DNA of 64,000 bases, taken from Psychroflexus salarius (GTDB taxonomy: Bacteria; Bacteroidota; Bacteroidia; Flavobacteriales; Flavobacteriaceae). Each line of letters opens with the position of its first letter. The stretch's first letter is position 1. Position numbers and translations under genes: made by a program. Under the pieces are notes generated by a model. The model searched no databases. It was given only the letters and a program-made list of their open reading frames with translations, and had not been told where the DNA came from. Positions 7,094-53,559 of the stretch are shown piece after piece. Where the stretch lies: positions 372,001-436,000 of the forward strand of contig NZ_FQTW01000001.1 of assembly GCF_900129035.1 (NCBI RefSeq). The letters are read 5' to 3'.

Positions 7094-9502
7094 ATGCAGG
7101 AAAAGGTTCAAAATAAAGATATTTCTTTTGATGAATTTAAATCAGAAGTTTTAAATGATTATAAAATTGCTGTTACAAGTAGAGAGTGTAGCTTACTAGG
7201 TCGCAGAGAAGTCTTGACTGGTAAAGCTAAGTTTGGGATATTTGGTGATGGTAAAGAAGTACCTCAACTCGCTTGGGCAAAATCTTTCAAAAACGGTGAT
7301 TTTAGATCAGGTTACTACCGTGACCAAACCTTTATGATGGCTATAGGTGAATTAAGTATCGAACAGTTTTTTGCTGGTTTATATGCCAATACCGATCTTG
7401 ATGAAGAGCCAATGTCTGGTGGGCGACAAATGGGCGGTCATTTCATGACACATTCATTAAATAAAGATGGTTCCTGGAAAAACCTTACTGAACAAAAAAA
7501 TTCAAGCGCAGACATCTCTCCTACTGCAGGACAAATGCCTCGATTACTTGGCTTAGCCCAAGCCTCAAAAATTTATCGCCACGAATCTAATATAGATGGT
7601 ACTAATTTTTCTAAAAATGGTAATGAAATTGCTTGGGGAACAATTGGTAATGCTAGTACAAGTGAAGGTTTATTCTGGGAAACATTTAATGCGGCTGGTG
7701 TTTTACAAGTGCCAATGGTAATTAATGTTTGGGATGATGACTACGGAATTTCAGTTCATGCTCGACATCAAACGACTAAAGAAAATATTTCAAAAATTTT
7801 GATGGGTTTTCAGCGTGATGACAATGATGATGGTTATGAAATTATTGTTGTAAAAGGTTGGGATTATCCTGCATTAATTGAAGCCTACCAAAAAGCAGAA
7901 GCCATTGCCCGAGAAAAACATGTGCCCGTTTTAATTCATGTGGTCGAATTAACACAACCTCAAGGTCATTCTACTTCAGGCTCGCATGAACGTTATAAGG
8001 ATAAAGATCGTTTAGAGTGGGAAAAAGAACACGATTGCAACCTAAAAATGCGTCAATGGATGCTTGATAATGGTATTGCAACTGATGAAGAACTTAGTGA
8101 ACTCGAAAAGTCTATTAAAAAAGAAGTTCGTAACGGTAAAAAAGCAGCATGGACAGCCTTTGGTAAGCAAGCCAAAGCCTACAATAAAGAGTTAATTAAG
8201 TTACTAAAAGATTTAGCAGAAAGTAGTGAAAACAAATCATTCATAACTAACCTAGTTAATGAATTAAGTGATAATAGTGAGCCATTAAAAAGCATTGTTT
8301 ATGCAACAGGTCGTAAAGCTTTAAGATATGTTAGAAACGAATCTACTGAAGCAAAATCTAGCTTAATTAACTGGTTAAACGATTTTCAACAAAAAGTTCA
8401 ACCTGACTACAGTAGCCATTTATGGAGTCCTTATGAAGCTAGCGCTAAAAATATTGCCGAAGTTTTACCAGAATATGATAATGATTCAGAAACAGTTGAT
8501 GCACGTGTTATTATGCGTGACAATTTTGAAGCAATTTTTAAATCAAGACCACAAACTTTAGTGTTTGGTGAAGACTCTGGTGAAATTGGTGATGTAAATC
8601 AAGGCTTAGAAGGTTTACAAGAAAAATTTGGAGAATTACGAGTTTCAGATACAGGAATTAGGGAGGCGACTATCTTAGGCCAAGGTATTGGTATGGCATT
8701 AAGAGGTTTACGCCCTATTGCTGAAATTCAATATTTAGACTATTTGCTCTATGCTTTACAAATCATGAGCGATGATTTAGCCACAACGTTATATCGTTCA
8801 AAAGGAAAACAAAAAGCTCCATTAATTGTAAGAACACGTGGTCACAGACTTGAAGGCATCTGGCATTCAGGATCGCCAATGGGTGGTATTCTAAACTTAT
8901 TACGTGGTGTTAATGTTCTAGTTCCAAGAAATATGACAAAAGCAGCTGGATTCTATAATACCATGCTTGAAAGCGATGAACCAGCGCTAATTGTAGAATG
9001 CCTAAATGGCTACCGATTAAAAGAACAATTACCTACTAATTTAGGCGAATTTAAAACGCCTGTTGGTCAAGTTGAAACCATTAGAGAAGGAAATGATGTT
9101 AGTGTTGTATCATATGGTTCAACGCTTAGAATTATTGAAAAGGCTGCAAATGAACTTGAAGAAGTTGGTATTTCAGTTGAAATTATTGATGTTCAATCTC
9201 TACTTCCATTTGATTTAAATCATGATTTAGTTAAAAGCGTTGCTAAAACCAACCGATTATTAGTGGTTGATGAAGATGTACCAGGTGGTGCTTCTGCTTT
9301 TATCCTACAAAAGATTGTAGATGAACAAAATGCATATCAATATCTGGATAGTAAGCCACAAACACTAACAGCTAAAGCACACCGACCTGCTTATGGCACT
9401 GATGGTGATTACTTCTCTAAACCTTCAGCTGAAGATATTTTTGAAAAAGTATATAGCATTATGCATGAATTTAACCCAGCACAATTTCCGAAGTTGATGT
9501 AG
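7094..9502 (+). CDS. Fused alpha/beta E1 component, 2-oxoacid (branched-chain type) dehydrogenase
   Basis: The 802 residues join an E1-alpha half (about 1-390) and an E1-beta half (about 470-802), normally separate subunits. Fused versions are common in Bacteroidota. The thiamine-diphosphate region reads GTIGNASTSEGLFWETFNAA followed by INVWDDDYGISV. The beta half carries LVFGEDSGEIGDVNQGLEGL and GIREATILGQGIGMALRG. The enzyme would decarboxylate branched-chain 2-oxoacids and reductively acylate the lipoyl E2, supplying branched-chain acyl-CoA for iso-fatty acids. E2 and E3 are not in the window. It is a single-gene unit with its own promoter and a strong terminator. A pyruvate preference cannot be excluded. 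Confidence 0.88.
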   Translation: MQEKVQNKDISFDEFKSEVLNDYKIAVTSRECSLLGRREVLTGKAKFGIFGDGKEVPQLAWAKSFKNGDFRSGYYRDQTFMMAIGELSIEQFFAGLYANTDLDEEPMSGGRQMGGHFMTHSLNKDGSWKNLTEQKNSSADISPTAGQMPRLLGLAQASKIYRHESNIDGTNFSKNGNEIAWGTIGNASTSEGLFWETFNAAGVLQVPMVINVWDDDYGISVHARHQTTKENISKILMGFQRDDNDDGYEIIVVKGWDYPALIEAYQKAEAIAREKHVPVLIHVVELTQPQGHSTSGSHERYKDKDRLEWEKEHDCNLKMRQWMLDNGIATDEELSELEKSIKKEVRNGKKAAWTAFGKQAKAYNKELIKLLKDLAESSENKSFITNLVNELSDNSEPLKSIVYATGRKALRYVRNESTEAKSSLINWLNDFQQKVQPDYSSHLWSPYEASAKNIAEVLPEYDNDSETVDARVIMRDNFEAIFKSRPQTLVFGEDSGEIGDVNQGLEGLQEKFGELRVSDTGIREATILGQGIGMALRGLRPIAEIQYLDYLLYALQIMSDDLATTLYRSKGKQKAPLIVRTRGHRLEGIWHSGSPMGGILNLLRGVNVLVPRNMTKAAGFYNTMLESDEPALIVECLNGYRLKEQLPTNLGEFKTPVGQVETIREGNDVSVVSYGSTLRIIEKAANELEEVGISVEIIDVQSLLPFDLNHDLVKSVAKTNRLLVVDEDVPGGASAFILQKIVDEQNAYQYLDSKPQTLTAKAHRPAYGTDGDYFSKPSAEDIFEKVYSIMHEFNPAQFPKLM

Positions 9503-36606: not shown

Positions 36607-38733
<2,127 letters not shown>

Positions 38734-38739
38734 TTAATT

Positions 38740-38781
38740 AACTTCAACAGACCTGTAATATTAATTTGATCTGTTGAAGTT
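38740..38781 (-). terminator. Intercistronic hairpin between GH65 and GH97 genes
   Basis: A perfect 12-bp inverted repeat AACTTCAACAGA/TCTGTTGAAGTT with an 18-base loop lies between the GH65 stop (38791) and the GH97 start (38715). On the minus strand it is followed by AATTAACC, not a T-run, so it may act as an mRNA processing or stability element rather than a full terminator. Confidence 0.45.
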
Positions 38782-38790
38782 TATAAAAAT

Positions 38791-41094
38791 TTAAGCACTT
38801 ACGGTTTCAGCTTGAATAGTTCTAGATTCACCATTAACCATAACTTGTATTTGTTCTGCGCCTTTCAACTGAAAATCGACACCAGATTTTGAAACTGTTA
38901 CCGTTAAAATCTGATTTCTAAAATTCACTTTGAATGAATAAGAATCCCATTGAGATGGAATTTTAGGCGCAAAATGAAGCTGATTATTTTTTACACGCAT
39001 TCCGCCAAAACCTTCAACAATGCTCATCCAAGTTCCGGCCATAGATGTAATATGGCAACCTTCTTCTACCTCTTTATTATAGTCGTCAAGATCTAAGCGT
39101 GAGGTTCTTAAGTAAAACTGATAAGCTTGATCCATACGGTTTAATAAAGCAGCTTGAATGCTATGAACACAAGGAGATAAAGATGATTCATGAACTGTAA
39201 ATGGTTCATAAAAATCAAAGTGGCGCTCAAGTTCTTCAGTTGAAAAGTGATCCTCAAAAAAGTAAAATCCTTGAAGCGTATCGGCTTGTTTAATGTAAGG
39301 TGAACGTAAAATTCTATCCCAAGACCAATATTGATTAATAGGTCTCAATTTTGGGTCTAAATCACTAACCTTAATCATTTCTTTATCTAAAAACCCGTCT
39401 TGTTGTAAATAAACTTGATGTTCTTCAGAAAAAGGAAAATACATTTTATCTGAAACCGCTTTCATTTGCGTTAACTCAACTTCAGTTAATTTCGTTTTAT
39501 GTAAAATTCTTGAAAAGTCTTCAGGATAATTTTCTTTTAAAATTTCGAAATTTTCTAACATATAATCGATACACCATTTTGCCATATAATTGGTATAAAA
39601 ATTATTATTAACGTTATTTTCATACTCATTTGGTCCCGTAACACCTAGAATAACATATTGGTTTTTTTGTTTAGAAAAAGTGGCTCTTTGTTGCCAAAAA
39701 CGAGCAATAGCGATTAAAACTTCCATTCCCATATCAACTATGTAAGAATAGTCATTTGTAAAACGGTGGTAGTTGAAAATTGCAAAAGCAATTGCACCAT
39801 TTCTATGAATTTCTTCAAACGTAATCTCCCATTCATTGTGTGATTCTTCGCCATTCATGGTGACCATAGGATAAAGAGCAGCTCCATTTTCAAAACCTAA
39901 CTTTTCTGCATTTTCTATAGCTTTATCTAAGTGCTTATAACGGTATTTCAGCAAGTTTTTGGCTACTTCCTGATTTTTTGTGGCCATATAAAATGGTAAA
40001 CAATAAGCTTCTGTGTCCCAATAAGTACTACCGCCATATTTTTCGCCTGTAAAACCTTTAGGACCAATGTTTAAGCGATGATCTGTTCCGGTGTAAGTTT
40101 GGTTAAGTTGAAAGATGTTAAACCTGATACCTTGTTGCGCTTTAACATCTCCATTAATACTTATATCACTCATCTCCCAAATTGAAGACCAAGCTTCTTT
40201 TTGTTCTTGTAATAGTTGAAGGTAACCAAGTTGATTTGTGGTTTGTAAAACTTGCTTAGCGGCATTAATTAACTGATCTTCAGCATAATTTAAAGACGTT
40301 GTATATCCAGCAATTTTCTGTAGTGTGAAACAATCGTTTGCATTAACTTTTGTTGTGTACTTCAAAGCAACTTTAGCATCAGTTTTAAATACTTCTGGTG
40401 AAAGTTCTACTTGTTCATGATTAATCAATAAACGAGATTCCATAAATGTACACACCTGATAATTGGTTTTCATGGTGTGAGACCTTATAAAGGCTTGATG
40501 ATCTTCGGTTTGACTACCTAATATATTCCAAAATTTATCGTCCCAATTAGAATCTTGGTTTGTAATTCCGGCATCAATATATGGTGCATAAGAAATATTA
40601 GCTGAAGCATTTAAAGGTGTAATGTTATAATTGATAACGCCAACTTCATTATGTGCTAAGCTTAAAAAACGTGTAGCTTCTACTTCAATTTGAATGTCAT
40701 TAGGAAGCGTGGCAATAAAGCTCCGTTTGTGCCAGCCTTCTTTCATATTCAATTCGCGCTTAAAGTTTTTAACTTCTTTACAAGTATTGAGATCAAATGT
40801 TTCACCTTCAATAGTGATATGGATTCCTATAAAATTAGGCGCATTTAAAACTTTAGCGAAATATTCAGGATAGCCATTTTTCCACCAGCCAACACGGGTT
40901 TTATCAGGGTAATAAATACCGCCAATGTAGCTTCCTTGAAAGCTTGGTCCTGAGTAATCTTCTTCAAAATTAGCACGTTGTCCCATCGCGCCATTTCCTA
41001 GACTAAAAAGGCTTTCTGAAGACTTAACATTAGACTTATCGAAACCATTTTCAATAATAGACCACTCATTTGGTGTGATATAATCTTGGTTCAT
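38791..41094 (-). CDS. GH65 maltose phosphorylase
   Basis: The 767 residues show GH65 phosphorylase features: GYTGEKYGG-type loop (GFTGEKYGGSTYWDTEAYCL), GPNEYENNVNNNFYTNYM with the general acid Glu, and ESSLSPCVHSIQAALL. The enzyme cleaves maltose with phosphate to glucose and beta-glucose-1-P, saving one ATP per disaccharide. There is no signal peptide, so it is cytoplasmic. It sits 13 bases after pgmB, the enzyme that uses its product. Trehalose or kojibiose phosphorylase is possible by family, but the locus makes maltose by far the likeliest. Confidence 0.92.
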   Translation of the reverse strand: MNQDYITPNEWSIIENGFDKSNVKSSESLFSLGNGAMGQRANFEEDYSGPSFQGSYIGGIYYPDKTRVGWWKNGYPEYFAKVLNAPNFIGIHITIEGETFDLNTCKEVKNFKRELNMKEGWHKRSFIATLPNDIQIEVEATRFLSLAHNEVGVINYNITPLNASANISYAPYIDAGITNQDSNWDDKFWNILGSQTEDHQAFIRSHTMKTNYQVCTFMESRLLINHEQVELSPEVFKTDAKVALKYTTKVNANDCFTLQKIAGYTTSLNYAEDQLINAAKQVLQTTNQLGYLQLLQEQKEAWSSIWEMSDISINGDVKAQQGIRFNIFQLNQTYTGTDHRLNIGPKGFTGEKYGGSTYWDTEAYCLPFYMATKNQEVAKNLLKYRYKHLDKAIENAEKLGFENGAALYPMVTMNGEESHNEWEITFEEIHRNGAIAFAIFNYHRFTNDYSYIVDMGMEVLIAIARFWQQRATFSKQKNQYVILGVTGPNEYENNVNNNFYTNYMAKWCIDYMLENFEILKENYPEDFSRILHKTKLTEVELTQMKAVSDKMYFPFSEEHQVYLQQDGFLDKEMIKVSDLDPKLRPINQYWSWDRILRSPYIKQADTLQGFYFFEDHFSTEELERHFDFYEPFTVHESSLSPCVHSIQAALLNRMDQAYQFYLRTSRLDLDDYNKEVEEGCHITSMAGTWMSIVEGFGGMRVKNNQLHFAPKIPSQWDSYSFKVNFRNQILTVTVSKSGVDFQLKGAEQIQVMVNGESRTIQAETVSA

Positions 41095-41107
41095 TGTTTC
41101 TTTAATT

Positions 41108-41764
41108 TTATTGATTTAGGAGTTTTTCTAAAAAATTTTGACTGATTTCGGTGAAATCTGAAAATACGTAATTGGCCTCGCCTAAAACAGAAGTTTTGCC
41201 AATACCAATACTTAACATCTCAGCTGTGTTTGCTGCTTGAACACCAGCAACTGAATCTTCAAAAACAACGCAATTTTGAGGTTCACAATCTAATTGCTTG
41301 GCGGCTGTTAAAAAAACCTGCGGGTCTGGCTTTGCTTTGGTTACGACAGTACCATCAACTATAGCATCAAAATAATGCGTTAAATTAACCTGTTTTAAAA
41401 TTCGCTTGGCATTTTTACTTGCCGAACCTAATGCAATAGGAATTTCTTTAGACTTTAAGAAATCTAAGGTTGACTTGACATCTGGCAAGATATCATCTTG
41501 GGTCATCTGGTCTACAAAACTAAGATACTCTGTGTTTTTTTGTTGCATCAGGCTATCAAACTTTTCTTGAGGTAATTCTTTGTTACCCCATTGAAGTATT
41601 TTTTCAAGCGATTTAATTCGGCTGACGCCCTTAAGCTGTTCGTTTTCTTTTTCTGTAAAATTAATATCGATGGAGTTAGCAAGGTTTTTCCAAGCAAGAA
41701 AATGGAATTTAGCAGTATCTACAATTACGCCATCGAGGTCGAATATAATTGATGTTTTAGTCAT
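41108..41764 (-). CDS. pgmB: Beta-phosphoglucomutase
   Basis: The 218 residues form a HAD-superfamily protein with FDLDGVIVDTAKFHFLAWK (nucleophile Asp, acid/base Asp and the cap His-Trp), KGVSRIKSLEKIL, ALGSASKNAKRIL and KAKPDPQVFLTAA followed by FEDSVAGVQAA. These are specific to beta-PGM, which converts beta-glucose-1-P to glucose-6-P. It overlaps the MFS gene by 8 bases and precedes GH65, a classic maltose phosphorolysis pair. Confidence 0.95.
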   Translation of the reverse strand: MTKTSIIFDLDGVIVDTAKFHFLAWKNLANSIDINFTEKENEQLKGVSRIKSLEKILQWGNKELPQEKFDSLMQQKNTEYLSFVDQMTQDDILPDVKSTLDFLKSKEIPIALGSASKNAKRILKQVNLTHYFDAIVDGTVVTKAKPDPQVFLTAAKQLDCEPQNCVVFEDSVAGVQAANTAEMLSIGIGKTSVLGEANYVFSDFTEISQNFLEKLLNQ

Positions 41765-43148
41765 GATTTAAATTTTGATTCTTAGTCTGAATATCGTCTA
41801 CATCTTTAACTTTTATAACTAAAAAAGCTGCTATAACCATGCTTATACCTGATAACAATAATGCAAATATAGCTTGATTTCCATAGGCATATTTAACCAA
41901 TGGACCGCCAATAACTCCATTTAATATTTGAGGCAAAACAATAAAAAAATTGAAAATACCCATGTAAACGCCCATTTTCTTAGGATTTATGGCACCTGCA
42001 AGAATAGCATACGGCATTGATAAAATACTTGCCCAAGCTATTCCTATACCTATCATAGGCAATATAAGCCAATAACGATCAGGCATGATGTAAATTGAAA
42101 TAAAACTTAAGCCGCCAATTAGTAAAGCATAAAAGTGGGTTTTCTTTCTACCAATTTTTTTAGCGATTTTTGGAAGATAAATAGCTACTGGAATGGAGAC
42201 GAGATTATAAACCCCAAATAAAATCCCAACCCAATCGCCGGCTTCATTAAATAGTTCGCTAGACGAATCTGTATGTGGCAACCCGTAAAAATGTTGTGCG
42301 ATTGCAGGAGTTGAAAACACCCACATTCCAAATAATGCAAACCAAGAAAAAAACTGGACCCAGCTTAATTGTTTCATGGTTGGCGGCATTTTTACAAAAT
42401 CAACAAAAATATCACTAAGCTTTGCCTTTTCTTCTTCAATAAGGGTTGTTGCTGAGTTTTGTTCATTTAATTTATTTTCAGCTTGCTCTATAAGTTTAAG
42501 TTCTTCAGGAGAATATTCTTTTGTTTTAGCAATAGTCACTAAAATTGAAACTAATAGTACAACAGCACCAATGATAAATGACCATATAAGATTTAAAGGA
42601 ACATTACCTTCAATGGCACGATTGCTTAGGCCAAAATACTCTGATAACACGTATGGCAACCAAGACCCAATCACGGCTCCAATACCAATTAAAATTGTTT
42701 GTACAGAAAAACCTAGCGTTCGTTGTTCTTTATCAAGAACATCGGCTACCAAAGCCCGAAATGGCTCCATTGAAATGTTAAATGATATATCCATAATCAT
42801 TAACATTCCTGTACCGACCCACAAGGCAGGCAAAAAAGCGATAAATAAATCTGCTTGCGGTAAAAGAATTAAGCCAATTGATGCTAATATAGCACCAATT
42901 AAAAAATAAGGTTTTCTTCTTCCTAATTTCGTCCAGGTATTATCACTATAATGCCCAACTAAAGGTTGAACTATTAAACCTGTTATTGGCGCGATAAGCC
43001 AAAACCATGATAGCTGATGAACTTCTGCACCAAAGGTTTGTAAAATTCTGCTTGCAAAACCATTTTGCAGTGCGAAACCCATTTGAATACCTAAAAAGCC
43101 AAAGCTAAGGTAAATAATTTCTAAGGTAGAAAGTTTGCGTTTTTGCAT
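41757..43148 (-). CDS. MFS maltose/maltodextrin transporter, SLC45-like
   Basis: The 463 residues have about twelve membrane segments and a long central loop (about 195-245). The cytoplasmic motif HYSDNTWTKLGRRKPYFLIGA matches the sucrose/maltose transporter (SLC45, GPH-like) subgroup. It would import maltose or short dextrins across the inner membrane by proton symport. It is the first gene of the MFS-pgmB-GH65 unit; the initiating ATG sits at the edge of an inverted repeat (43149-43172). Confidence 0.88.
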   Translation of the reverse strand: MQKRKLSTLEIIYLSFGFLGIQMGFALQNGFASRILQTFGAEVHQLSWFWLIAPITGLIVQPLVGHYSDNTWTKLGRRKPYFLIGAILASIGLILLPQADLFIAFLPALWVGTGMLMIMDISFNISMEPFRALVADVLDKEQRTLGFSVQTILIGIGAVIGSWLPYVLSEYFGLSNRAIEGNVPLNLIWSFIIGAVVLLVSILVTIAKTKEYSPEELKLIEQAENKLNEQNSATTLIEEEKAKLSDIFVDFVKMPPTMKQLSWVQFFSWFALFGMWVFSTPAIAQHFYGLPHTDSSSELFNEAGDWVGILFGVYNLVSIPVAIYLPKIAKKIGRKKTHFYALLIGGLSFISIYIMPDRYWLILPMIGIGIAWASILSMPYAILAGAINPKKMGVYMGIFNFFIVLPQILNGVIGGPLVKYAYGNQAIFALLLSGISMVIAAFLVIKVKDVDDIQTKNQNLNHD

Positions 43149-43254: not shown

Positions 43255-44313
43255 TTATGACTCATTACTATTCAAAGTCGTTTCTCTTTCTATAATATCT
43301 GTCTCAACAACAACCGTTTTATAATTTTCATCTTCTGTTTCATCGGTGCTTTCAAGCCTATTGATAAGGAGTTTTGCGGCTTGACTACCCATGGCTTTAC
43401 CATGTTGACTGACCGTAGTTAATGGCGGAAATGCGTGCTTTGAAAGTACACCATCAGTAAAACCTACAAATTGAATGTCTTGAGGGATAGAATAACCTAA
43501 TTCTCTTGCAGCCTTCATTGCTGTTATAGCATAGAGCTCATTTACAGCGAAAATAGCATCAATTTCATTATGTTTTAAATAATTTTTTATTTGAGTCTCT
43601 AAATGTAAAAGTTCATCTTGAGGTTTGTTGTTATCTTCAATCTTAAGAATAAGATTTTCATCTAAATTGATATTATTAAATTGTAAAGCCTCGACATAAC
43701 CTTTAGTTCTTAAACGTCCAACACTAACGTAATCTTCGGTTGTGATAATCCCAACTTTTTTAGCGCCCGAATCTATTAATTTTTGAACCGCTTTTCGTGA
43801 AGTGGCTATATCATCTACTACTATTTTATCGCAAATAATTTCATCTAAAACCCGATCAAACATAACTATTGGTATACCTTGATCAATCGTTTCAAATAAG
43901 TGGTGATAATCTTTTAGGGCTAATGTCTCCTTCGCAACTGAAATAATAAAACCATCGATACTCCCATTAGCAAGCATTTCAAGATTAATCACCTCTTTAT
44001 CAAAAGACTCGTTAGATAAACCAACAATAACATTATAACCATGAGAGTTTGCGTAATCTTCAATACCTGAAATGACAGTAGTAAAGAAATGGTGAACAAT
44101 CTCAGGAATAATAACACCAAGCGTTTTAGTTTTCTTATTTTTTAAACTTAAAGCAATATTGTTGGGTTTGTAATTGTAGAGTTTAGCAAAGGCCCGAACT
44201 TTTTCTTTCGTTTCATCACTTATTTCTTTACTATCGCGAAGCGCCTTAGACACTGTTGAAACGGAAACATCTAACTCCTTGGCTATAATCTTCAAAGTGG
44301 GCTTTTGTCTCAT
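43255..44313 (-). CDS. LacI-family transcriptional regulator of the maltose/starch locus
   Basis: The 352 residues begin with a LacI HTH (TLKIIAKELDVSVSTVSKAL) and hinge (YNYKPNNIALSLKNKKTKTLG), followed by a periplasmic-binding-protein-like sensor domain (GVIIPEIVHHFFTTVISGIE; VVDDIATSRKAVQKLI; FVGFTDGVLSKHAFPPLTTV). It is divergent from susC and upstream of the MFS operon. A near-perfect LacI-type palindrome lies in the susC intergenic region at 44403-44418. Flavobacterial starch loci use this type in place of the Bacteroides SusR. The effector is presumably maltose or a dextrin. Confidence 0.93.
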   Translation of the reverse strand: MRQKPTLKIIAKELDVSVSTVSKALRDSKEISDETKEKVRAFAKLYNYKPNNIALSLKNKKTKTLGVIIPEIVHHFFTTVISGIEDYANSHGYNVIVGLSNESFDKEVINLEMLANGSIDGFIISVAKETLALKDYHHLFETIDQGIPIVMFDRVLDEIICDKIVVDDIATSRKAVQKLIDSGAKKVGIITTEDYVSVGRLRTKGYVEALQFNNINLDENLILKIEDNNKPQDELLHLETQIKNYLKHNEIDAIFAVNELYAITAMKAARELGYSIPQDIQFVGFTDGVLSKHAFPPLTTVSQHGKAMGSQAAKLLINRLESTDETEDENYKTVVVETDIIERETTLNSNES

Positions 44314-44507: not shown

Positions 44508-47423
44508 ATGCAAACAATTAAACATTTGGGCTTTATACTACTATTATTGCCCATTAGCCTCTTTGCCCAACAAACTGTTAAAGGTACTGTTGTCGGTGAA
44601 GATGGTGTGCCAATTCCTGGTGTTAATATTTCTATAGAAAACACTAACAAGGGAACAACTACCGATTTTGATGGTAATTACTCAATCGTTGTAGAACAAA
44701 ATCAAGTGCTAAAGTTCTCGTATTTAGGCTTTAAGCCGAAAAAAGTAACTTACACTAATCAAAATGAAATTAACATTACACTTCAACTTGACACAGCTGT
44801 TTTAGAAGAAGTTGTCGTTGTTGGTTATGGTACTGCAAAGAAAGAAGACTTAACTGGAGCGGTTGATTTGGTAACTCCAAAAGATTTCAACAAAGGTCCA
44901 ATTAATTCAGCACAACAACTTATTACTGGTAAAATTGCTGGTGTTAATGTTACCTCAGCATCAGGTTCACCTGGTGATGGCCAAAATATTACAATTAGAG
45001 GTTTAGGCTCATTATCCTTAACTAGTGAGCCACTTTATGTTATTGATGGTGTACCAATTGATAATGGTGGCGTTGGTGGTTCTCGTAATCCATTAAATAT
45101 TATTAACCCTAACGATATTGCAAGCATCACGGTTTTAAAAGATGCTTCAGCTACAGCTATTTATGGTTCTCGTGCCGCGAATGGTGTTATCCAAATTACA
45201 ACTAAAAAAGGAAAAGACACCAAAGAATTTCGTTTTAATACATCCTATAATAGAACCATTAGAAATACTGTAGAAACTGTTGATGTACTAGGTGCTTCAG
45301 AATTTAGAAACTTAGTACAAACAATTGGTAATGAAAATCAGATTTCAAGATTAGGTGATGCTAATACAGATTGGCAAGACCAGATTTATGCTGATCAAGC
45401 CATGGGTGGTGAATTTAATACGAGTGCATTAGGTAATGCCTATGGTGTACCAATGCGCGTGTCTTTAGGTTATTCTGACCAGAATGGTATTTTAAGAGGC
45501 GATAACTTTTCAAGGTTAACAGGGTCTTTAAACCTGACGCCTACTCTATTAGACGAAAAGCTAAAGTTGACTTTTAATGCAAGAGGTTCTTATGTAGAAA
45601 ATACATTTGCAGATCGTGGTGCTATCGGCGCAGCCGTGGCTTTTGACCCGACTCAACCGGTATTCGACGAAAATTCGCCGTTTGCCAATTACTACACTTG
45701 GTTAGATGGTGATCGTCAGCGTGGTTTAGCTACAACAAACCCAGTTGCTTTATTAGATTTAATTGATGACACTTCTGAAGTAAGAAGATTTATTACCAAC
45801 TTAAAAGCAGATTATAAATTAACCGATGAGTTGACTGCAACTATAAATGCTGGTTATGACGAATCTAATAGTAATGGAAGACGTATAACTTCTAGTGATA
45901 TTCCTACATCAGATGCTCCTGGAAGCGGTTTGCAAACAGGCGCTAGAACTGAATTTAGCCAAATCCAAAAAAACAAATTATTTGATGCTTACCTCAATTA
46001 TAAAGGTAGCTTTAACGATGTGCATAACATTGATGCTACAGCTGGTTATTCTTACCAGGAGTTTGAATTTGATAACTTTAGCTATGATAGCGAGCGCGAG
46101 GAACAAGGCTTAGAATCTGAATTCATCGACAAATCTAGAAGCGTATTATTATCTTATTTTGGGCGTGTTAACTATAATTTTGATAGTAAATACTTAGTCA
46201 CAGCAACCCTAAGAGCTGATGCCTCGTCTAAATTAAATCCAGACGATCGTTGGGGTTATTTTCCATCATTTTCAGCAGCTTGGAATATCCATAATGAAGA
46301 TTTTATCGAAGAATCTAGCGTCATTAATGAATTGAAATTAAGAGCTGGTTATGGTGAAGTTGGTAACGTAAATGGTTTAGGAGATTACCGATTTTTAACA
46401 CGTTATGTTGCTAGTCAACAAACAGCTAATTATCAGTTTGGAAATTCATTTTTACAAACCTTCAGACCAGAGCCAGTCAATGAAAATTTAAAATGGGAAG
46501 TCGGTTCAACTATAAACGTTGGTTTAGATTATGCTATTTTAGATAATCGTATTTCTGGTTCAGTAAATGCTTACAGAAGAGAAACAAAAGATTTAATTGC
46601 ATTTACGCTTGTAGATCCATTTACAAACTTCGGTAACCGTATTGATGCTAATATTGGTGATATGGTTAATGAAGGTATAGAATTTACTTTAAACCTTAGA
46701 CCAGTTGATACTGATGATTTTCAATGGGACATCAATTACAACATATCATTTAATGAAAATGAAATTACAAGACTACCAGACGAACAAAACGTTGGTGGTA
46801 TAAGTGGTGGTACAGGTAATAATGTTCAAATTCATCGCGAAGGTGAAGCGCCTTTTAGCTTTTATGTTTACGAACAAGTTTATGACTCAAACGGTAGCCC
46901 TATAGAAGGTGTTTTTGTAGATAGAAACAGCGACGGAATCATAAATAATGATGACCGATACATTAAAGAAGATCCTTATGCAGATGTGCTTATGGGCTTA
47001 AACACTAACTTAAGCTATAAAAACTGGGATTTATCTATTCAATCTAGAGCAAGCCTTGGTAACTATGCTTATGATAATGTAGCTTCTGCTAATGGGTATG
47101 AAAGACGAGCAACTGATAATCAGATTTTATCAAACCTTCACGTTGATTATTTAAATACAGGTTTCAAAACTATTACTGAACAAAACTTGTTAAGTGATTA
47201 TTATGTACAAGAAGCCTCATTTTTTAGAATTGATAATATAACTTTAGGTTATAATTTTGATAGTTTATCAAAAAATGCGAATTTTAGGGTGTATGGATCT
47301 TTACAAAACGCTTTAGTTGTAACCGATTATGATGGTATCGATCCTGAAATTTCTGGAGGAATTGATAACAATTTCTATCCAAGACCAAGAACACTAGTTA
47401 TTGGTGTTAATGTTGATTTTTAA
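44508..47423 (+). CDS. susC: SusC/RagA-family TonB-dependent outer-membrane transporter
   Basis: The 971 residues show a signal peptide (LLLLPISLFAQQ), a carboxypeptidase-regulatory-like domain (VKGTVVGEDGVPIPGVNIS to FSYLGFKPKK), the TonB box LEEVVVVGYGTAKK, and the SusC plug (TGKIAGVNVTSASGSPGDG, ITIRGLGSLSLTSEPLYVID, KDASATAIYGSRAANGVI). A 22-strand-type barrel follows, ending VIGVNVDF. It imports maltooligosaccharides with SusD as lid. It is first in susC-susD-susE; the gap to susD is 6 bases. Its length is within the range for short-type SusC proteins. Confidence 0.97.
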   Translation: MQTIKHLGFILLLLPISLFAQQTVKGTVVGEDGVPIPGVNISIENTNKGTTTDFDGNYSIVVEQNQVLKFSYLGFKPKKVTYTNQNEINITLQLDTAVLEEVVVVGYGTAKKEDLTGAVDLVTPKDFNKGPINSAQQLITGKIAGVNVTSASGSPGDGQNITIRGLGSLSLTSEPLYVIDGVPIDNGGVGGSRNPLNIINPNDIASITVLKDASATAIYGSRAANGVIQITTKKGKDTKEFRFNTSYNRTIRNTVETVDVLGASEFRNLVQTIGNENQISRLGDANTDWQDQIYADQAMGGEFNTSALGNAYGVPMRVSLGYSDQNGILRGDNFSRLTGSLNLTPTLLDEKLKLTFNARGSYVENTFADRGAIGAAVAFDPTQPVFDENSPFANYYTWLDGDRQRGLATTNPVALLDLIDDTSEVRRFITNLKADYKLTDELTATINAGYDESNSNGRRITSSDIPTSDAPGSGLQTGARTEFSQIQKNKLFDAYLNYKGSFNDVHNIDATAGYSYQEFEFDNFSYDSEREEQGLESEFIDKSRSVLLSYFGRVNYNFDSKYLVTATLRADASSKLNPDDRWGYFPSFSAAWNIHNEDFIEESSVINELKLRAGYGEVGNVNGLGDYRFLTRYVASQQTANYQFGNSFLQTFRPEPVNENLKWEVGSTINVGLDYAILDNRISGSVNAYRRETKDLIAFTLVDPFTNFGNRIDANIGDMVNEGIEFTLNLRPVDTDDFQWDINYNISFNENEITRLPDEQNVGGISGGTGNNVQIHREGEAPFSFYVYEQVYDSNGSPIEGVFVDRNSDGIINNDDRYIKEDPYADVLMGLNTNLSYKNWDLSIQSRASLGNYAYDNVASANGYERRATDNQILSNLHVDYLNTGFKTITEQNLLSDYYVQEASFFRIDNITLGYNFDSLSKNANFRVYGSLQNALVVTDYDGIDPEISGGIDNNFYPRPRTLVIGVNVDF

Positions 47424-47429
47424 AAAAAA

Positions 47430-49325
47430 ATGAAAATGAAAAGAACGAGTTTAAAATTTAGTTTTATTGCACTTTCTGCTTTATTGGTAATGTCTTGCCA
47501 CGATGAGTTAGACCAAACACCGATAGATCCAGATACTGTAACTGAACAAGATGTATTTGCAGATGCAAGTCAAGCAAAAGGCGCGCTTGCCAAATTATAC
47601 GCAAGTTTAGCCTTAACAGGACAACAAGGTCCTGCAGGCCAACCAGATATTTCTGGTATAGATGAAGGTTTTTCACAATACACTAGAATGCTGTATAATC
47701 TAAACGAACTAACAACTGATCATGCTGTTGTTGGTTGGGGTGATCCAGGTTTACCTGATTTACATGCTATGTCTTGGTCTTCAGGTAACGATTTTACAGA
47801 AGCCATGTATTATAGATTAGCCCAAGAGGTTTCATTTACTAACTCTTTTATTGCAAATGCAAACCTGTTAACAGACCCTATTGTTGAACAGTATATTGCC
47901 GAAGCAAGGTTTTTAAGAGCCTTTGCTTATTATAATTTAATGGATTTATATGGTAATGTGCCATTAACTACTGAAATTTCAACTGAATTACCTGAACAAG
48001 CTTCAAGAGCTGAGATTTTTAGTTTTGTTGAACAAGAACTTCTAGATATCCAAAGTTCACTAGCAACAGATGGTTCTAATGAATACGGTCGCGTTGATGA
48101 AGTAGCCGCTTGGGCATTATTGTCTAAATTATATTTAAATGCTGAAGTATTCACTGGTGAAGCTAGATACAATGAAGCAGTAGAATTTTCTGAAAAAGTG
48201 ATTAATTCATCATATAGTATTAATACAAATGATGCCAACGGAAATGGCTCTGCCTACGATGAATTATTTTTAGCTGATAATAATGTGAACGGCGCTCAAA
48301 ACGAATTTATATTTGCTTTAAACTTTGATGGCTTACAATCACAAACATTTGGAGGAACAACATTCTTAACACATGCCTCAATTGGTGGTAATATGAACGC
48401 TTTAGATTATGGCGTTAATGCAGGTTGGGCTGGCTTAAGAACAACTGATGCATTAGTGAAAAAATTTGATGTTACCGATGATGCATTGAATAACTCTTTT
48501 AACACAATTTCTAATTGGGCAATCATTGGTAGTGCAACACCAAATGGATGGAATGATCCTGACACAGATATGTATGAAGTTGGTACAGATGTTTATCAAA
48601 TTTTCGCTACATTGTCTGATGGCGAAATGAAGTTTAGAAGAGATAATGATTGGGCTGTAAATTATGGCGGCGCTGATGGTAATGCAGAACTCAACGGTGG
48701 TAACATCAGTGTAGATGCTGGTCGTTATTTAATTACTTTAGACTTAAATAACAATACCTACACACTTGAGTCAATTTATAATGATTTACCAGATGCTAGA
48801 GCAATGTTTTATACAAATGGACAAAGTTTAGAAATTGAGGAAATTCCTCCTTTTGAACAGGGTTTTGCTGTAACCAAGTTTAAAAATATTGACTCTAATG
48901 GTAATCAAGGCAGTGATAATACTGGTAATTATGTAGACACAGACTACCCAGTGATCAGATTACCTGAAATCTATCTAAATTACGCTGAAGCAACACTTCG
49001 CGGTGGAAATGGTAGTGAGGCTACAGCAGTTAACTTAATAAATGAAATTAGAGAGCGAGCGTATGGAAATTCTAGTGCAAGCATCAATAGTTCAGATTTA
49101 ACATTAGAATTTGTTCTAGATGAACGCTCAAGAGAACTTTATTGGGAAGGCCAACGTAGAACAGATTTAATTAGATACAATCTTTTTACAACAAACGATT
49201 ACTTATGGCCTTTTAAAGGAGATGCACAAAATGGTGTTTCAGTTCCTGAATTTAGAACGCTATTTCCTATTCCAAACGACTTATTATCAATTAATCCAAA
49301 TTTGACACAAAATGAAGGCTATTAA
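47430..49325 (+). CDS. susD: SusD/RagB-family starch-binding lipoprotein with embedded SusE-type module
   Basis: The 631 residues start with a lipoprotein signal (SALLVMSC); the acidic HDELD after the Cys fits a surface lipoprotein export signal. The SusD alpha-helical fold is evident (FVEQELLDIQSSLATDG, EARFLRAFAYYNLMDLYG, VIRLPEIYLNYAEATLRGG, ERSRELYWEGQRRTDLIRY). About residues 358-448 do not belong to SusD; they match the starch-binding repeats of the next gene, SusE. The protein is correspondingly longer than typical SusD proteins (about 520-560). It overlaps susE by 14 bases. It captures oligosaccharides and closes over SusC. Confidence 0.96.
   Translation: MKMKRTSLKFSFIALSALLVMSCHDELDQTPIDPDTVTEQDVFADASQAKGALAKLYASLALTGQQGPAGQPDISGIDEGFSQYTRMLYNLNELTTDHAVVGWGDPGLPDLHAMSWSSGNDFTEAMYYRLAQEVSFTNSFIANANLLTDPIVEQYIAEARFLRAFAYYNLMDLYGNVPLTTEISTELPEQASRAEIFSFVEQELLDIQSSLATDGSNEYGRVDEVAAWALLSKLYLNAEVFTGEARYNEAVEFSEKVINSSYSINTNDANGNGSAYDELFLADNNVNGAQNEFIFALNFDGLQSQTFGGTTFLTHASIGGNMNALDYGVNAGWAGLRTTDALVKKFDVTDDALNNSFNTISNWAIIGSATPNGWNDPDTDMYEVGTDVYQIFATLSDGEMKFRRDNDWAVNYGGADGNAELNGGNISVDAGRYLITLDLNNNTYTLESIYNDLPDARAMFYTNGQSLEIEEIPPFEQGFAVTKFKNIDSNGNQGSDNTGNYVDTDYPVIRLPEIYLNYAEATLRGGNGSEATAVNLINEIRERAYGNSSASINSSDLTLEFVLDERSRELYWEGQRRTDLIRYNLFTTNDYLWPFKGDAQNGVSVPEFRTLFPIPNDLLSINPNLTQNEGY
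48501..48775 (+). other. SusE-type carbohydrate-binding module embedded within susD
   Basis: This encodes about residues 358-448 of SusD: NWAIIGSATPNGW, then LSDGEMKFRRDNDWAVNYGG and AGRYLITLDLNNNTYTLES. The same motifs occur in each of the three SusE repeats, strongest to repeat 1 in the first half (GSATPGGW, DGEMKFRENNDWAVNYG) and to repeat 2 in the second half (GHYIITLDLNSQTYELE). SusD-like sequence resumes on both sides. Confidence 0.85.
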
Positions 49326-50652
49326 TCAATTAACTTTTTTAAAGTTATTTTCTATAATCATCGCTCTCGGTTTATGGAGTTGTGATGACCAAGAATTAAC
49401 TCAAATTAATGAAAATGCTAACACAGCCCTATCGCTATCTATTGATGCGGTTGTGATGACTGAAGATAACACTAATGAAGAAATCTTAACGGCTACTTGG
49501 ACAAAACCAGACTTTGGTTTCCAGTCAGTTCCTGAATACACCATTGAAGTTGATATGATGGGTAACGATTTTAGTAGTCCTAGGTTAGTAAATGTAGGCA
49601 GAAATACTTCAAAAGTATTTACTTCTGAAGAACTCAACAGTATCTTATTAAACCTAGGTGCTACACCAATGGAAGTTAATCAAATAGAAATGAGATTACT
49701 TGTAAGTTTAAGTGATGCCCAAGAAAGTTACACTCAACCTGTAGGTCTTGAAGCCACACCTTTTTCTTCAATTCTAGATTTATCAACTAATTTAGGTGTT
49801 GTTGGTAGTGCCACGCCTGGCGGTTGGAGTTCAACAAATGAAACTCCTATTCAAGATATTCCATTTTATTCGACTTCTGAAAACAATGTGGTTGTTGCCT
49901 ATGCAACATTAAGAGATGGTGAAATGAAATTCAGAGAGAATAATGATTGGGCAGTCAATTATGGTGATGATGGAAATGATGGCTCTTTAGAGCCTAACGG
50001 TGCAAATATTCCAGTGAGTGCAGGCAATTACAAAATAACCGTTAATACTGAAACTTTAGAATGGTCTATTGAAGAGTATTCTTGGGGAATTGTAGGCGGT
50101 GCTACTGTCTACGGTTGGGACACACCAGACATAAAATTTGAATATAACCCTTTTCAAGATAATTGGAAAGCCGCTGCTACATTGACTGATGGTGAAATAA
50201 AATTCCGTCAAAATGAAGAATGGAGTTTTGACTATGGTGATAATGGCGCAGATGGAACACTTGACCAAGGTGGTGATAATATTGCAGTTGAAGCTGGACA
50301 TTACATCATCACATTAGATTTAAACAGTCAAACTTATGAATTAGAACCAACTGATTTGTGGGGTCTTGTTGGTAGCGGTACTACATTTGGCTGGGATGCA
50401 CCTGATCCAGATAAATTTTTACCTGATTTCGGAATTAACGAAGGTATGTACTACTTAAATGGTGTTGAAATTGGTGCAGGAGAAGTTAAAGTTAGACAAA
50501 ACGAAGATTGGGGCGTTAATTACGGTGATGATGGAAATGACGGAACGCTAGAATTAGGCGGTGCTAATATTCCTGCAACACCAGGTATTTACAATGTTGA
50601 AATGAATTTTACAGTAAATCCACCGACTATTAACTTTTACCCTTGGCAATAA
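49312..50652 (+). CDS. susE: SusE-like surface lipoprotein with three starch-binding modules
   Basis: The 446 residues have a lipoprotein signal (IIALGLWSC followed by acidic DDQE, fitting surface export), an N-terminal SusE Ig-like domain (about 25-155, LTATWTKPDFGFQSVPEYTI) and three tandem modules of about 92-96 residues starting near 160, 257 and 349. Each module has the order GxVGxATxxGW, DGExKFRxNxxW, YGDxGxDGxL, AGxYxITxxL. In Bacteroides SusE/SusF such modules each bind starch and retain it at the surface. The start overlaps susD by 14 bases. A hairpin follows before the amylase gene. Confidence 0.92.
   Translation: MKAINQLTFLKLFSIIIALGLWSCDDQELTQINENANTALSLSIDAVVMTEDNTNEEILTATWTKPDFGFQSVPEYTIEVDMMGNDFSSPRLVNVGRNTSKVFTSEELNSILLNLGATPMEVNQIEMRLLVSLSDAQESYTQPVGLEATPFSSILDLSTNLGVVGSATPGGWSSTNETPIQDIPFYSTSENNVVVAYATLRDGEMKFRENNDWAVNYGDDGNDGSLEPNGANIPVSAGNYKITVNTETLEWSIEEYSWGIVGGATVYGWDTPDIKFEYNPFQDNWKAAATLTDGEIKFRQNEEWSFDYGDNGADGTLDQGGDNIAVEAGHYIITLDLNSQTYELEPTDLWGLVGSGTTFGWDAPDPDKFLPDFGINEGMYYLNGVEIGAGEVKVRQNEDWGVNYGDDGNDGTLELGGANIPATPGIYNVEMNFTVNPPTINFYPWQ
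49789..50649 (+). repeat. Three tandem SusE/F-type module repeats
   Basis: Repeats start near 49789, 50080 and 50356. Conserved landmarks are GSATPGGW/GGATVYGW/GSGTTFGW and NDWAVNYGDDGNDG/EEWSFDYGDNGADG/EDWGVNYGDDGNDG. They are diverged at DNA level, so the repeats are not a recent tandem expansion. Confidence 0.88.
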
Positions 50653-50709: not shown

Positions 50710-53559
50710 ATGAAAAAAAATCTACTTTTAATAATAAGTCTTTTATTAGGGGCAATCAGCTTAGCTCAGCAACAGACAGGGAATTTTACAATCACTCCAC
50801 CTAGTTTTGAGCAAGATGATGAAATTACAATCACTTTATCTGGTGTTGTTCCAGGAGTTTGGAGTACAAGTGATGTTTATTTGTGGGCTTGGTACACGAA
50901 TGCTAATGGTCAACAATTCGACTCGCCTACTAATGGCTCGTGGACAAGTTCTAGTGAATCACAAAAAATGACCAATAATGGTGATGGTACTTTTTCATTT
51001 ACAATGACTCCAACCGACTTTTACGGTGCGACTGACATTGTTGAAATTGGCATGCTTGCTAAAGCTAAAGATGGTACAGGCGATAAAAAAACACAAGACT
51101 TTGTAACCGATGTTGGAACATTTCAGTTAACGCTTAATGCACCTCAAGAAGACTTAAACGTAATCCAAAACGGTGACAACTTTTCTATTTCAGCCTCAAA
51201 CTCAGCTGGGAATGCCACTTATGTTTTATCTGCTAATGGAAGTGTAATTAATACTCAAACAGGTATTAACACGTATTCTTATACCGATACAAACATTACT
51301 GAGAATAAAGAGTATATTCTAGAAGTGACCCAAGGTTCTATAACTTTTACAAGAGAGTTTTCAGTTATCGCTGAACCAACCATTAACTCGGTTGCTATGC
51401 CAGCTGATTATGAAGATGGTATCAATTATATTAGTGATACTGAAGCCATTTTAGTTTTAAATGCACCTGAAAAAGATTTTGTTTACGTTGCAGGTAGCTT
51501 TAATAACTGGAATCCTGACGGAACCTATGCTATGAATATTGATCCTACGAGAGATAATAAATTTTGGATTTCATTAGATGGTTTAACACCTGGACAAATT
51601 GAAACCTATCAATATTGGGTTGTAGACCAAACACCAGTTAATGGTTCGCCTAAAGTAGTAAAAACTGCAGACCCATTTTCAACTTTGGTTTTATCACCTT
51701 TTGATGATCCTGGAATTCCAACAAATTCATATCCTAACTTACCTCAATATCCTGATGGTCAAGAACGTGAAGTGAGTGTCTTACAAACAGCAAAGCCAGA
51801 ATATAACTGGCAAGTAACTGATTTTGAAAAACCTAAAAAGGAAGATCTTGTGGTTTATGAAGTTCTAGTTAGAGATTTCGATGGTGACAGAAACTACCAA
51901 GATTTAATCGATAAGATAAACTATTTTAAAGATTTAAACATCAATGCCATTCACCTTATGCCAGTGATGGAATTTGAAGGCAACGAAAGTTGGGGATATA
52001 ATACAGCTTTTCATATGGCTTTAGACAAATTCTATGGGACTGAAAATAAACTTAAAGAGTTCATAGATTTATGTCATCAAAATGATATTGCTGTCATTCT
52101 TGACTTGGTATTAAATCATGCTTATGGTCGTAATCCTATGGTAAGAATGTGGATGAATGATCCTGATGGTGATGGTTGGGGCGGACCTTCAATAGAAAAT
52201 CCCTACTTCAACACGTCTCCTCGACATAGCTATAATGTAGGTAACGATTTTAATCATCAAAGTGATTTTACTCAATACTACACTGAACGTGTCATCAAAC
52301 ACTGGATTCAAGAGTTTAAAATTGATGGCTTTAGATGGGATTTAACAAAAGGCTTTACTCAAAATTGTTCAGGCTCTAATGAATCATGCACAAATAGTTA
52401 CCAACAAGATCGCGTAGATGTTTTAAAATCTTACGCTGACTATTCATGGTCGTTAGATGATAGCCATTACGTTATTTTTGAACATTTAGGCCAAGATAAT
52501 GAAGAACAGCAATGGGCTAATTATCGCTTAAATGAGAATAAAGGAATTATGCTTTGGGGCAAGATGACAGACCAATATAATCAACTTACAATGGGCTTTA
52601 ATTCTAATAATGATATTACTAGAATGGGTCACGAAAGCCGTGGTTTTAATGCACCTCGATTAATGGGCTATGCCGAAAGTCATGATGAAGAACGCTTGAT
52701 GTATAAAAATCTAGAATTTGGAAACACTTCAAACGCTTCTCATAATGTACAAAATTTAAACACAGCTCTATCTCGCATGTCTGCACTTGGCGCTGTTACA
52801 ATGACTATTCCTGGCCCTAAAATGATTTGGCATTTCGGAGATTTAGGGATGGAAAACTCTATTTTTACTTGTAATGATGGTAGTGTCAACTTACCAGGTG
52901 GTACTGATGGTGACTGTAAACTTGACACTAAACCTCAACCACAGTGGACGAATAATTGGCTCAACGACCCTATAAGAAGTCAGATTTATAATGATTGGGC
53001 AAGATTACACGAATTAAAAATTGATGAAGATGTTTTTGAAGGTGATTATGCCATAAATTCTGGTAATACTTTAACACCACGTATTTATGTATTTGACAAC
53101 AACTTACCTGCTTCATCACTTAAAAACGTGGTGGTCCTTGCTAACTTTGATGTTACTGCAAGAAATATCACGCCTGATTTTCCTTATACCGGTGAATGGT
53201 ACGACTTAATGGATGAAACAGGTTCAACTTCTATAAATGTAAATAACACTTCAGCAGCTATTAATATTCCTGCTGGAGAATTTAGAATTTACGGAAATGC
53301 ACCTTCAACTTTAAGCAACAACCAGTTTAATCAAGAGAAAATTGCATTGTATCCTAATCCTACTTCAAATGCATTCAAGCTATCAGTTAATGTAAAAACT
53401 GTAAAAATTTATAATACGCTTGGCAAGGAAGTTAAATCTTTTAAAGCTGTAAATGCGCATCAAATTTTGAATATATCAGAACTTAAAACTGGTTTGTTTT
53501 TTGTACAAATTACAGATGAATCTGATGTAAAAGAAACTCTTAAGCTTATTAAACGTTAA
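50710..53559 (+). CDS. Secreted GH13 alpha-amylase with CBM-like domains and T9SS sorting domain
   Basis: The 949 residues have a signal peptide (LLLGAISLAQQ) and two N-terminal beta domains. The first reads FTITPPSFEQDDEITIT; the second, CBM48-like, has VYVAGSFNNWNPDG (about 260-330). The GH13 barrel has VILDLVLNHAYG, GFRWDLTKGF (nucleophile Asp 544), VIFEHLG (Glu 591) and ESHDEERL (Asp 659). The C-terminal LYPNPTSNAFKLSV to GLFFVQITDE region is a type A T9SS sorting domain. It is the likely extracellular starch-cleaving enzyme feeding SusCDE, equivalent in role to Bacteroides SusG but secreted by a different route. Confidence 0.93.
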   Translation: MKKNLLLIISLLLGAISLAQQQTGNFTITPPSFEQDDEITITLSGVVPGVWSTSDVYLWAWYTNANGQQFDSPTNGSWTSSSESQKMTNNGDGTFSFTMTPTDFYGATDIVEIGMLAKAKDGTGDKKTQDFVTDVGTFQLTLNAPQEDLNVIQNGDNFSISASNSAGNATYVLSANGSVINTQTGINTYSYTDTNITENKEYILEVTQGSITFTREFSVIAEPTINSVAMPADYEDGINYISDTEAILVLNAPEKDFVYVAGSFNNWNPDGTYAMNIDPTRDNKFWISLDGLTPGQIETYQYWVVDQTPVNGSPKVVKTADPFSTLVLSPFDDPGIPTNSYPNLPQYPDGQEREVSVLQTAKPEYNWQVTDFEKPKKEDLVVYEVLVRDFDGDRNYQDLIDKINYFKDLNINAIHLMPVMEFEGNESWGYNTAFHMALDKFYGTENKLKEFIDLCHQNDIAVILDLVLNHAYGRNPMVRMWMNDPDGDGWGGPSIENPYFNTSPRHSYNVGNDFNHQSDFTQYYTERVIKHWIQEFKIDGFRWDLTKGFTQNCSGSNESCTNSYQQDRVDVLKSYADYSWSLDDSHYVIFEHLGQDNEEQQWANYRLNENKGIMLWGKMTDQYNQLTMGFNSNNDITRMGHESRGFNAPRLMGYAESHDEERLMYKNLEFGNTSNASHNVQNLNTALSRMSALGAVTMTIPGPKMIWHFGDLGMENSIFTCNDGSVNLPGGTDGDCKLDTKPQPQWTNNWLNDPIRSQIYNDWARLHELKIDEDVFEGDYAINSGNTLTPRIYVFDNNLPASSLKNVVVLANFDVTARNITPDFPYTGEWYDLMDETGSTSINVNNTSAAINIPAGEFRIYGNAPSTLSNNQFNQEKIALYPNPTSNAFKLSVNVKTVKIYNTLGKEVKSFKAVNAHQILNISELKTGLFFVQITDESDVKETLKLIKR

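Follow-up and report, generated by a model that had tools for sequence, protein, structure and literature searches.

A SusE/F-type module within the SusD lipoprotein of a putative alpha-glucan locus in Psychroflexus salarius

The locus and its SusD protein

The stretch of Psychroflexus salarius DNA analysed here, 64,000 nucleotides long and referred to as the window in the following, holds a SusC/SusD pair together with genes for a SusE lipoprotein and an amylase-like protein. The TonB-dependent transporter SusC (44508..47423, + strand, 971 aa) is recognized by the Pfam models Plug, CarbopepD_reg_2 and TonB barrel and by TIGR04056 (OMP_RagA_SusC, 757.6 bits). It is followed by the SusD lipoprotein with the embedded module that is the subject of this study (47430..49325, +, 631 aa), by SusE (49312..50652, +, 446 aa) and by a GH13 alpha-amylase-like protein with a T9SS sorting tail (50710..53559, +; PF00128, PF18962; TIGR04183). 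SusE consists of a PF14292 domain (2.1e-23) and three modules (PF16411, 4e-11), which lie at 49792..50070, 50083..50343 and 50359..50616 (all +) and give profile matches of 108.6, 113.7 and 87.1 bits, respectively. The opposite strand encodes a LacI-type regulator (43255..44313, −; PF00356, PF13377), a GH97 protein (36607–38715, −), a GH65 protein (38791–41094, −), a HAD hydrolase (41108–41764, −) and an MFS transporter (41757–43148, −). From their neighbourhood, we infer that the latter four (36607..43148) act together in one alpha-glucan locus.

SusD matches the Pfam families PF07980 (120.4 bits, cut-off 23.1; 1.6e-34) and PF14322 (38.7 bits, cut-off 27). The NCBIfam model for SusD (NF033071), which is of the kind 'exception', matches over its whole length with 450.3 bits, below its curated cut-off of 725, and the name SusD is therefore used here in a wider sense. 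The closest sequence matches in the PDB are 3jys and SusD of Bacteroides thetaiotaomicron (B. theta). Both align in two blocks, at residues 26–346 and 447–631 in the case of B. theta SusD (3ck7) and at residues 43–351 and 451–631 in that of 3jys, and both skip the stretch between these blocks. An earlier note on this DNA, made from the letters alone, had stated that normal SusD sequence lies on either side of a foreign segment, and the two alignment blocks bear this out; neither structure aligns with the protein end to end. The N-terminal core comprises residues 23–346 (47496..48467, +), as delimited by the alignment with B. theta SusD and by conservation, and the C-terminal core residues 455–631 (48792..49322, +), as delimited by Pfam and the alignments with the PDB chains.

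A model of full-length SusD has a mean pLDDT of 82.3, and its top Foldseek matches are again 3jys (TM by target 0.88) and B. theta SusD (3ck9, 0.82), with E<=1.8e-33. We further checked five positions of the starch site, namely R86, W103, D105, F307 and W333. Their counterparts in B. theta SusD, which we take to be the binding residues R81, W98, N101, Y296 and W320, fit the letters of the 3ck7 chain with a constant offset of 24; the arginine and both tryptophans are kept, while N101 corresponds to D105 and Y296 to F307, both conservative replacements. R86, W103, D105 and W333 are identical in all 71 module-bearing and all 23 insert-free rows of the window's family, and also in the insert-bearing groups of two further families described below (f24 and f5), with some loci repeated in these groups. 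All of them have an aromatic residue at position 307; a glycine stands there in two rows (L127, L128) with an insert of about 77 residues. The lipobox cysteine, C23, is invariant in 80 rows. Judged by sequence and model, the SusD core is intact, and the protein is an otherwise ordinary alpha-glucan SusD. It shares its core fold, the five starch-site positions, the lipoprotein cysteine and the place beside SusC with B. theta SusD (3ck7–3ck9, 3ckb, 3ckc) and 3jys. Unlike the window's protein, however, these have no embedded module, with just 38 and 5 unaligned residues at the site, respectively.

The embedded module and its insertion site

The insert lies in a loop about 14 residues past the starch-site tryptophan W333, between the conserved anchors LVxKF and DxRAMF. 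By anchor comparison, it spans residues 347–454 (48468..48791, +), that is, 108 residues, which remain unaligned in B. theta SusD and 3jys. Between the same anchors, 23 insert-free relatives have 3 (n=4), 16 (n=3) or 17 residues (n=16), and 66 measured carriers have 106–122; one row (L045) stands outside this comparison. Likewise, among 105 SusD frames in 110 loci, some of which were taken twice, the gap between the matched flanks is 97–113 residues in proteins with the module and −6 to +8 in those without it, matches that missed either flank having been dropped.

The module itself, of a type that may be called X25-like, covers residues 363–446 (48516..48767, +; profile match 102.8 bits). This falls within the segment in which the earlier note had recognized a SusE/F-type module (48501–48775, residues 358–449). 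The likeness of this segment to the modules of the neighbouring SusE, on which the note had relied, is pronounced: its BLOSUM62 local score against SusE is 228, compared with 37.5 ± 6.4 and a maximum of 71 in 1000 shuffles, and the SusD flanks score only 41 and 35. On the DNA level, SusE repeat 1 shares 77% identity with a 62-nt stretch of the insert. Against Pfam, the isolated segment matches PF16411 (SusF_SusE) with 28.2 bits (cut-off 27.5), whereas the match within the full protein stays under the cut-off at 24.8 bits. In an alignment of SusD and SusE modules, 70 of 75 match PF16411 at E<=0.01. PF14292 is absent from the Pfam matches of SusD at E<=1, so that the insert corresponds to a module and not to a whole SusE. 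A search of the window's own genome with the module alignment returned four copies at E<=0.01, the one in SusD and the three in SusE.

Modelled alone, with 75 aligned modules of its kind as input, the segment is predicted to form a nine-stranded beta domain (mean pLDDT 95.3), and the same nine strands recur within the full SusD model (block means 89–96), as expected for the separate beta domain that the note had anticipated. Its first four Foldseek matches, all to proteins that have starch-binding domains, are the X25-2 module of Sca5 from Ruminococcus bromii, the pullulanase BaPul, SusF and the starch-binding domain of AmyP (probability 0.98–1.00, E 0.0045–0.15, none at E<=0.001); the matches to Sca5 X25-2, BaPul and SusF have E-values of 0.0045–0.017 and a probability of 1.00. 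Taken together, profile, alignment and model confirm that, in the window's alpha-glucan SusD, a single SusE/F-type (PF16411, X25-like) beta module breaks up the SusD sequence.

A more specific proposal, that the module is a chimera with repeat 1 of SusE in its first half and repeat 2 in its second, did not hold. Both halves are about equally near to both repeats (20/42 and 22/42 identities with repeat 1, 19/42 and 23/42 with repeat 2), which rules such a chimera out.

Distribution and origin of the insert

The nearest relative of the window's SusD is that of Psychroflexus curvus (L001), at 90% identity, the core of which is equal to that of another genome of the genus (G174). An insert at the same site is present in three Psychroflexus genomes, with module identities of 85% and 56%. 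Beyond the genus, we followed the note's suggestion to survey flavobacterial SusD homologs. In an even draw of 299 genomes of the family, 77 matched SusD at E<=1e-90, a threshold near which carriers are favoured, since the query for this search and for that of the phylum carried the module. The module is present in 30 of the 77 (frames of 622–664 aa, matched through the module) and absent from 47 (frames of 523–561 aa); a further sampling bias is that one of the six search patterns for SusD relatives falls inside the module.

In a core tree computed without the module for 91 SusD proteins of the family (68 with and 23 without insert, after removal of 10 duplicates and the five fragments L056, L101, L105, L110 and L092), four changes of state are needed. 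Insert-free rows are scattered among insert-bearing ones, and the four rows from Psychroflexus, of which two are the window's own, cluster with 19 rows that lack the insert (support 99). The insert-free SusD proteins of L067, L072, L074 and L076, which also occupy scattered positions, each have exactly 3 residues at the junction, and this exactness suggests that the loop was cleanly lost or exchanged more than once. Two other genomes of the family (L127 and L128; G572 and G601) have 76–77 residues in the same loop that do not match the module profile; the segment of L128, the one scanned, has no Pfam match. In L020, the gene downstream of a module-bearing SusD (7853–9070) has no first-type modules and carries PF14292, and genes without first-type modules also follow SusD in L014, L034, L037, L039, L040, L041, L043, L052 and L053. 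It seems that SusE changed its type in these loci, of which L020 was tested, while the module in SusD stayed. L004 is labelled Chlorobiota, a label that is probably wrong, since its SusD core duplicates that of a row of the window's family, by identities and length L104 (G232).

A search of 395 genomes of the phylum revealed further SusD proteins with inserts. In a second family (f24), 12 of 92 genomes have a SusD of 639–670 aa that holds a second module type in the same loop; the 21 matching genomes divide into these 12, 8 with an insert-free SusD and 1 with a fragment. The only f24 SusD scanned (L115) exceeds the Pfam cut-offs of PF16411 as well as X25. A third family (f5) carries its inserts in this loop too: a tandem query matched, end to end, a SusD of 725–770 aa in 40 of 150 genomes. 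All 30 of these that were fetched contain two modules, one of the second type followed by one of the first (weakest second-module score 13.7 bits), and the modules of f5 SusE follow the same order. The remaining matches in f5 comprise one SusD in pieces and 37 genomes with an insert-free SusD, so classified by frame and match length, 13 of them after reading.

PF14292 is missing from many f5 genomes. It is absent from all 22 genomes in which the locus of the tandem SusD showed no two-module SusE (17/17 and 5/5), of which 10 placed in the core tree form one clade and are thus not independent. Overall, it is absent from 25 of the 40 carriers of a tandem-module SusD and from 27 of the 37 genomes with an insert-free SusD (2/6 and 25/31). 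As this absence is common with or without the insert, the loss of SusE is not tied to the capture, and we rejected the idea that the fusion replaced SusE. Eight f5 loci (L221, 1227–3005, and its counterparts in L222–L228) encode proteins of 593–626 aa with five tandem first-type modules beside SusC/SusD, seen in 8/8 such loci read at 15 kb; the protein of L221, the one scanned, has a T9SS tail, and PF14292 is absent from the L221–L228 genomes. Modules also extend into putative amylases of genomes other than the window's, where we considered them as a conceivable substitute for the one in SusD. Proteins of 769–773 aa in L233 (2675–4990), L234 (3481–5787) and L235 (5911–8229) have three SusE-type modules at their C-terminus, and those of L233 and L234 carry GH13 by Pfam; the SusD proteins of these three loci have no module.

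For the history of the module in the window's family, we compared trees of the modules themselves. The deep forks of these are weak, as they come from quick trees on 87 (264- and 120-module sets) or 98 columns (cross-family set). In a free tree of 264 modules, from which modules shorter than 75 aa, identical ones and those of SusE proteins with other than two or three modules had been dropped, the 68 flavobacterial SusD modules form one clade save for one row (L094). A single clade of these modules is not rejected in this set (AU p 0.511), nor in two others (AU p 0.545, and AU p 0.878 with 41 of 120 subsampled modules), and in all three sets the tree that holds the SusD modules together outscores the free tree. 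The insert is older than the species compared, and its better-scored history, which we regard as likely, is one old capture in the window's family, inherited mainly vertically along with SusD, with some losses.

Across families, the picture is more complex. The cross-family module tree unites the f24 SusD modules in a clade (97), next to which branch 14 of 19 first modules of f24 SusE (fork 90); the SusD modules from the window's family are placed among SusE modules of that family. A joint clade of the two groups of SusD modules is rejected (AU p 0.0004); joining the window-family modules with the second modules of f5 is not (AU p 0.164), nor is joining the f24 modules with the first modules of f5 (AU p 0.371). 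These tests, as well as the one with AU p 0.545, used 128 of 201 modules, from a set without the SusE modules of L004 and L174, the L169 rows, L126_f24D1 and L186_f5D2. Since the modules of the window's family and f24 are not one clade, either modules were captured at least twice, or an ancestral tandem pair was reduced by different losses. In a core tree of 104 SusD proteins, from which 12 of the 30 f5 rows were left out and in which the window-family rows were subsampled, insert-bearing and insert-free clades are interleaved, with 12 label changes, at least 8 of which are forced by starred branches.

Two other histories have to be weighed against a capture in each family. The inserts could derive from one ancestral tandem insertion, a second-type followed by a first-type module, of which the families lost different parts. 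The presence of both types in tandem in f5 and the joins of f5 modules that were not rejected agree with this, yet the f24 modules cluster beside SusE modules of their own family, and the interleaving in the 104-protein tree would call for many losses; we therefore judge a common tandem ancestor to be rather unlikely, though a serious contender. Much less credible is a separate, chimera-free capture from SusE in the Psychroflexus line, older than the species. It would fit the 62-nt stretch of similarity to SusE repeat 1, the grouping of the Psychroflexus SusD cores with insert-free ones and the position of the window's module, which lies outside the main SusD-module clade in two free quick trees (cross-family and 120-module). 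Against it stand the lack of a half-and-half repeat pattern, the identical insertion site in 30 sampled genomes of the family and the better scores of trees that keep the SusD modules together. A very recent local capture is contradicted by the same-site inserts in the three Psychroflexus and the 30 sampled family genomes, and together with the single module clade that is not rejected, this renders a recent recombination unlikely. Of the neighbour-gene recombination proposed in the earlier note, the kinship with the SusE module family stands, while the chimera does not and a recent event is unlikely.

Putative function and significance

Within the module, three residues stand out by their conservation. 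Trp374 (48549..48551, +) and Trp408 (48651..48653, +), two putative sugar platforms, are tryptophans in 27/27 sampled SusD modules of the window's family and in 12/12 of f24; Lys401 (48630..48632, +), a putative ligand contact, is a lysine in 27/27 of the family. Given the invariance of the three in all 27 family modules, a putative second starch site is the best reading. X25 modules are described in sections of PMC9112005 as using two tryptophans each, with tryptophan pairs binding starch, and SusF modules as binding maltooligosaccharides. That SusD is the moving lid of the SusCD complex is taken from sections of published SusCD work (PMC7782687) and not from a modelled complex. An extra starch-binding site on this lid, as the earlier note had envisaged, is thus plausible, if putative.

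If so, the module, held covalently on the SusD lid, would be a working alpha-glucan binder. The lid would have two grips on the chain, one by SusD's own site and one by the module, which would raise its avidity for long or branched alpha-glucan, and the lid-borne module could keep the chain near the mouth of SusC. In effect, the lid would incorporate a surface glycan-binding module, alongside the SusE that remains a protein apart. We consider this explanation as a whole, an X25-like module captured long ago into a SusD loop where it works as an alpha-glucan binder and gives the lid a second grip, to be probable, albeit with clear reservations: X25 modules of Sca5 failed to bind when taken singly (sections of PMC9112005), and a SusE with modules of its own still adjoins SusD.

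These reservations lead to the question of whether the module needs to bind starch at all. It could instead act like a part of SusE that aids uptake by SusCD independently of starch binding, for example by holding the lid or by docking SusE or the amylase. According to work cited in sections of PMC9599597 (Foley 2018), B. theta SusE can restore uptake without the aid of its starch-binding sites, and an action of SusE on SusCD that lets SusD open was proposed; in the dextran utilisome, moreover, the SGBP lies nearest to SusD (sections of PMC7618045). The f5 family points the same way. Among its 22 SusD proteins without a two-module SusE at the locus, 5 of 22 first modules and 10 of 19 second modules retain W374, although the core starch site has its R, W, D and W in 22/22. 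One f5 clade has thus retained modules with decayed Trp/Lys residues, and binding cannot be the whole story there. A purely structural role would require neither of the two tryptophans that are invariant in the window's family and f24, however, and we regard it as unlikely for these proteins. More improbable still, to the point of being hard to maintain, is a neutral, functionless insertion into a loop that merely tolerates extra domains. The loop is indeed variable among the family members compared (3, 16–17 or 106–122 residues), two genomes fill it with residues that match no module, and insert-free proteins occur among insert-bearing ones. Nevertheless, the module core and its Trp/Lys residues are conserved in SusD proteins that are about 42–50% identical in their N-terminal core, and SusE-type modules, from the same pathway, turn up as inserts time and again. 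From these patterns, we therefore read the module as a second starch site in the case of the window's family, possibly with a binding-independent role elsewhere, as in f5. Tentatively, and with less confidence than we place in a second grip, one may go further and view this loop of the alpha-glucan SusD as a recurrent docking slot, into which SusE-type modules moved several times in Bacteroidota, as a single module, as one of the other type or in tandem. As cis-tethered SGBPs, they might bind starch or, where the residues have decayed, open the lid in a SusE-like manner.

Among known systems, the modules of SusE and SusF (SusF, 4fe9; BT3088 SGBPdex, 9sji and 9sje) belong to the same sequence family and fold as that of the window, yet they are tandem domains of a separate lipoprotein, whereas the window has a single module in a SusD loop, without the PF14292 domain. 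CBM58 of SusG, inserted in domain B of this amylase, is likewise a starch-binding module inside a Sus surface protein, but its host is an enzyme and not a transporter lid (sections of PMC11267923). Looped and open forms of marine alpha-glucan SusD vary near the SusD binding site in the same kind of locus and bacteria (PMC11093988). At about 17 residues, their loop matches in length the stretch of 16–17 residues in most insert-free relatives, from which we infer that it is the loop of the insertion site. The main text of that paper uses 'insertion' 0 times and 'domain' once, and the sections considered mention no embedded module. More generally, full-text searches of openly accessible papers, judged by titles, opening lines of abstracts and sections, yielded no description of a SusE-type module inside SusD, which may nevertheless be known from elsewhere.

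Large nutrients enter Bacteroidota through SusCD complexes, and the way in which SusE/F-type proteins assist the lid is not yet settled (sections of PMC7782687, PMC9599597 and PMC7618045). A natural fusion of a SusE-type module with the lid fixes the geometry of the two, and close relatives with and without the module lend themselves to paired tests. In many such loci, a possible second binding site would go unnoticed if SusD were annotated as a single-domain protein.
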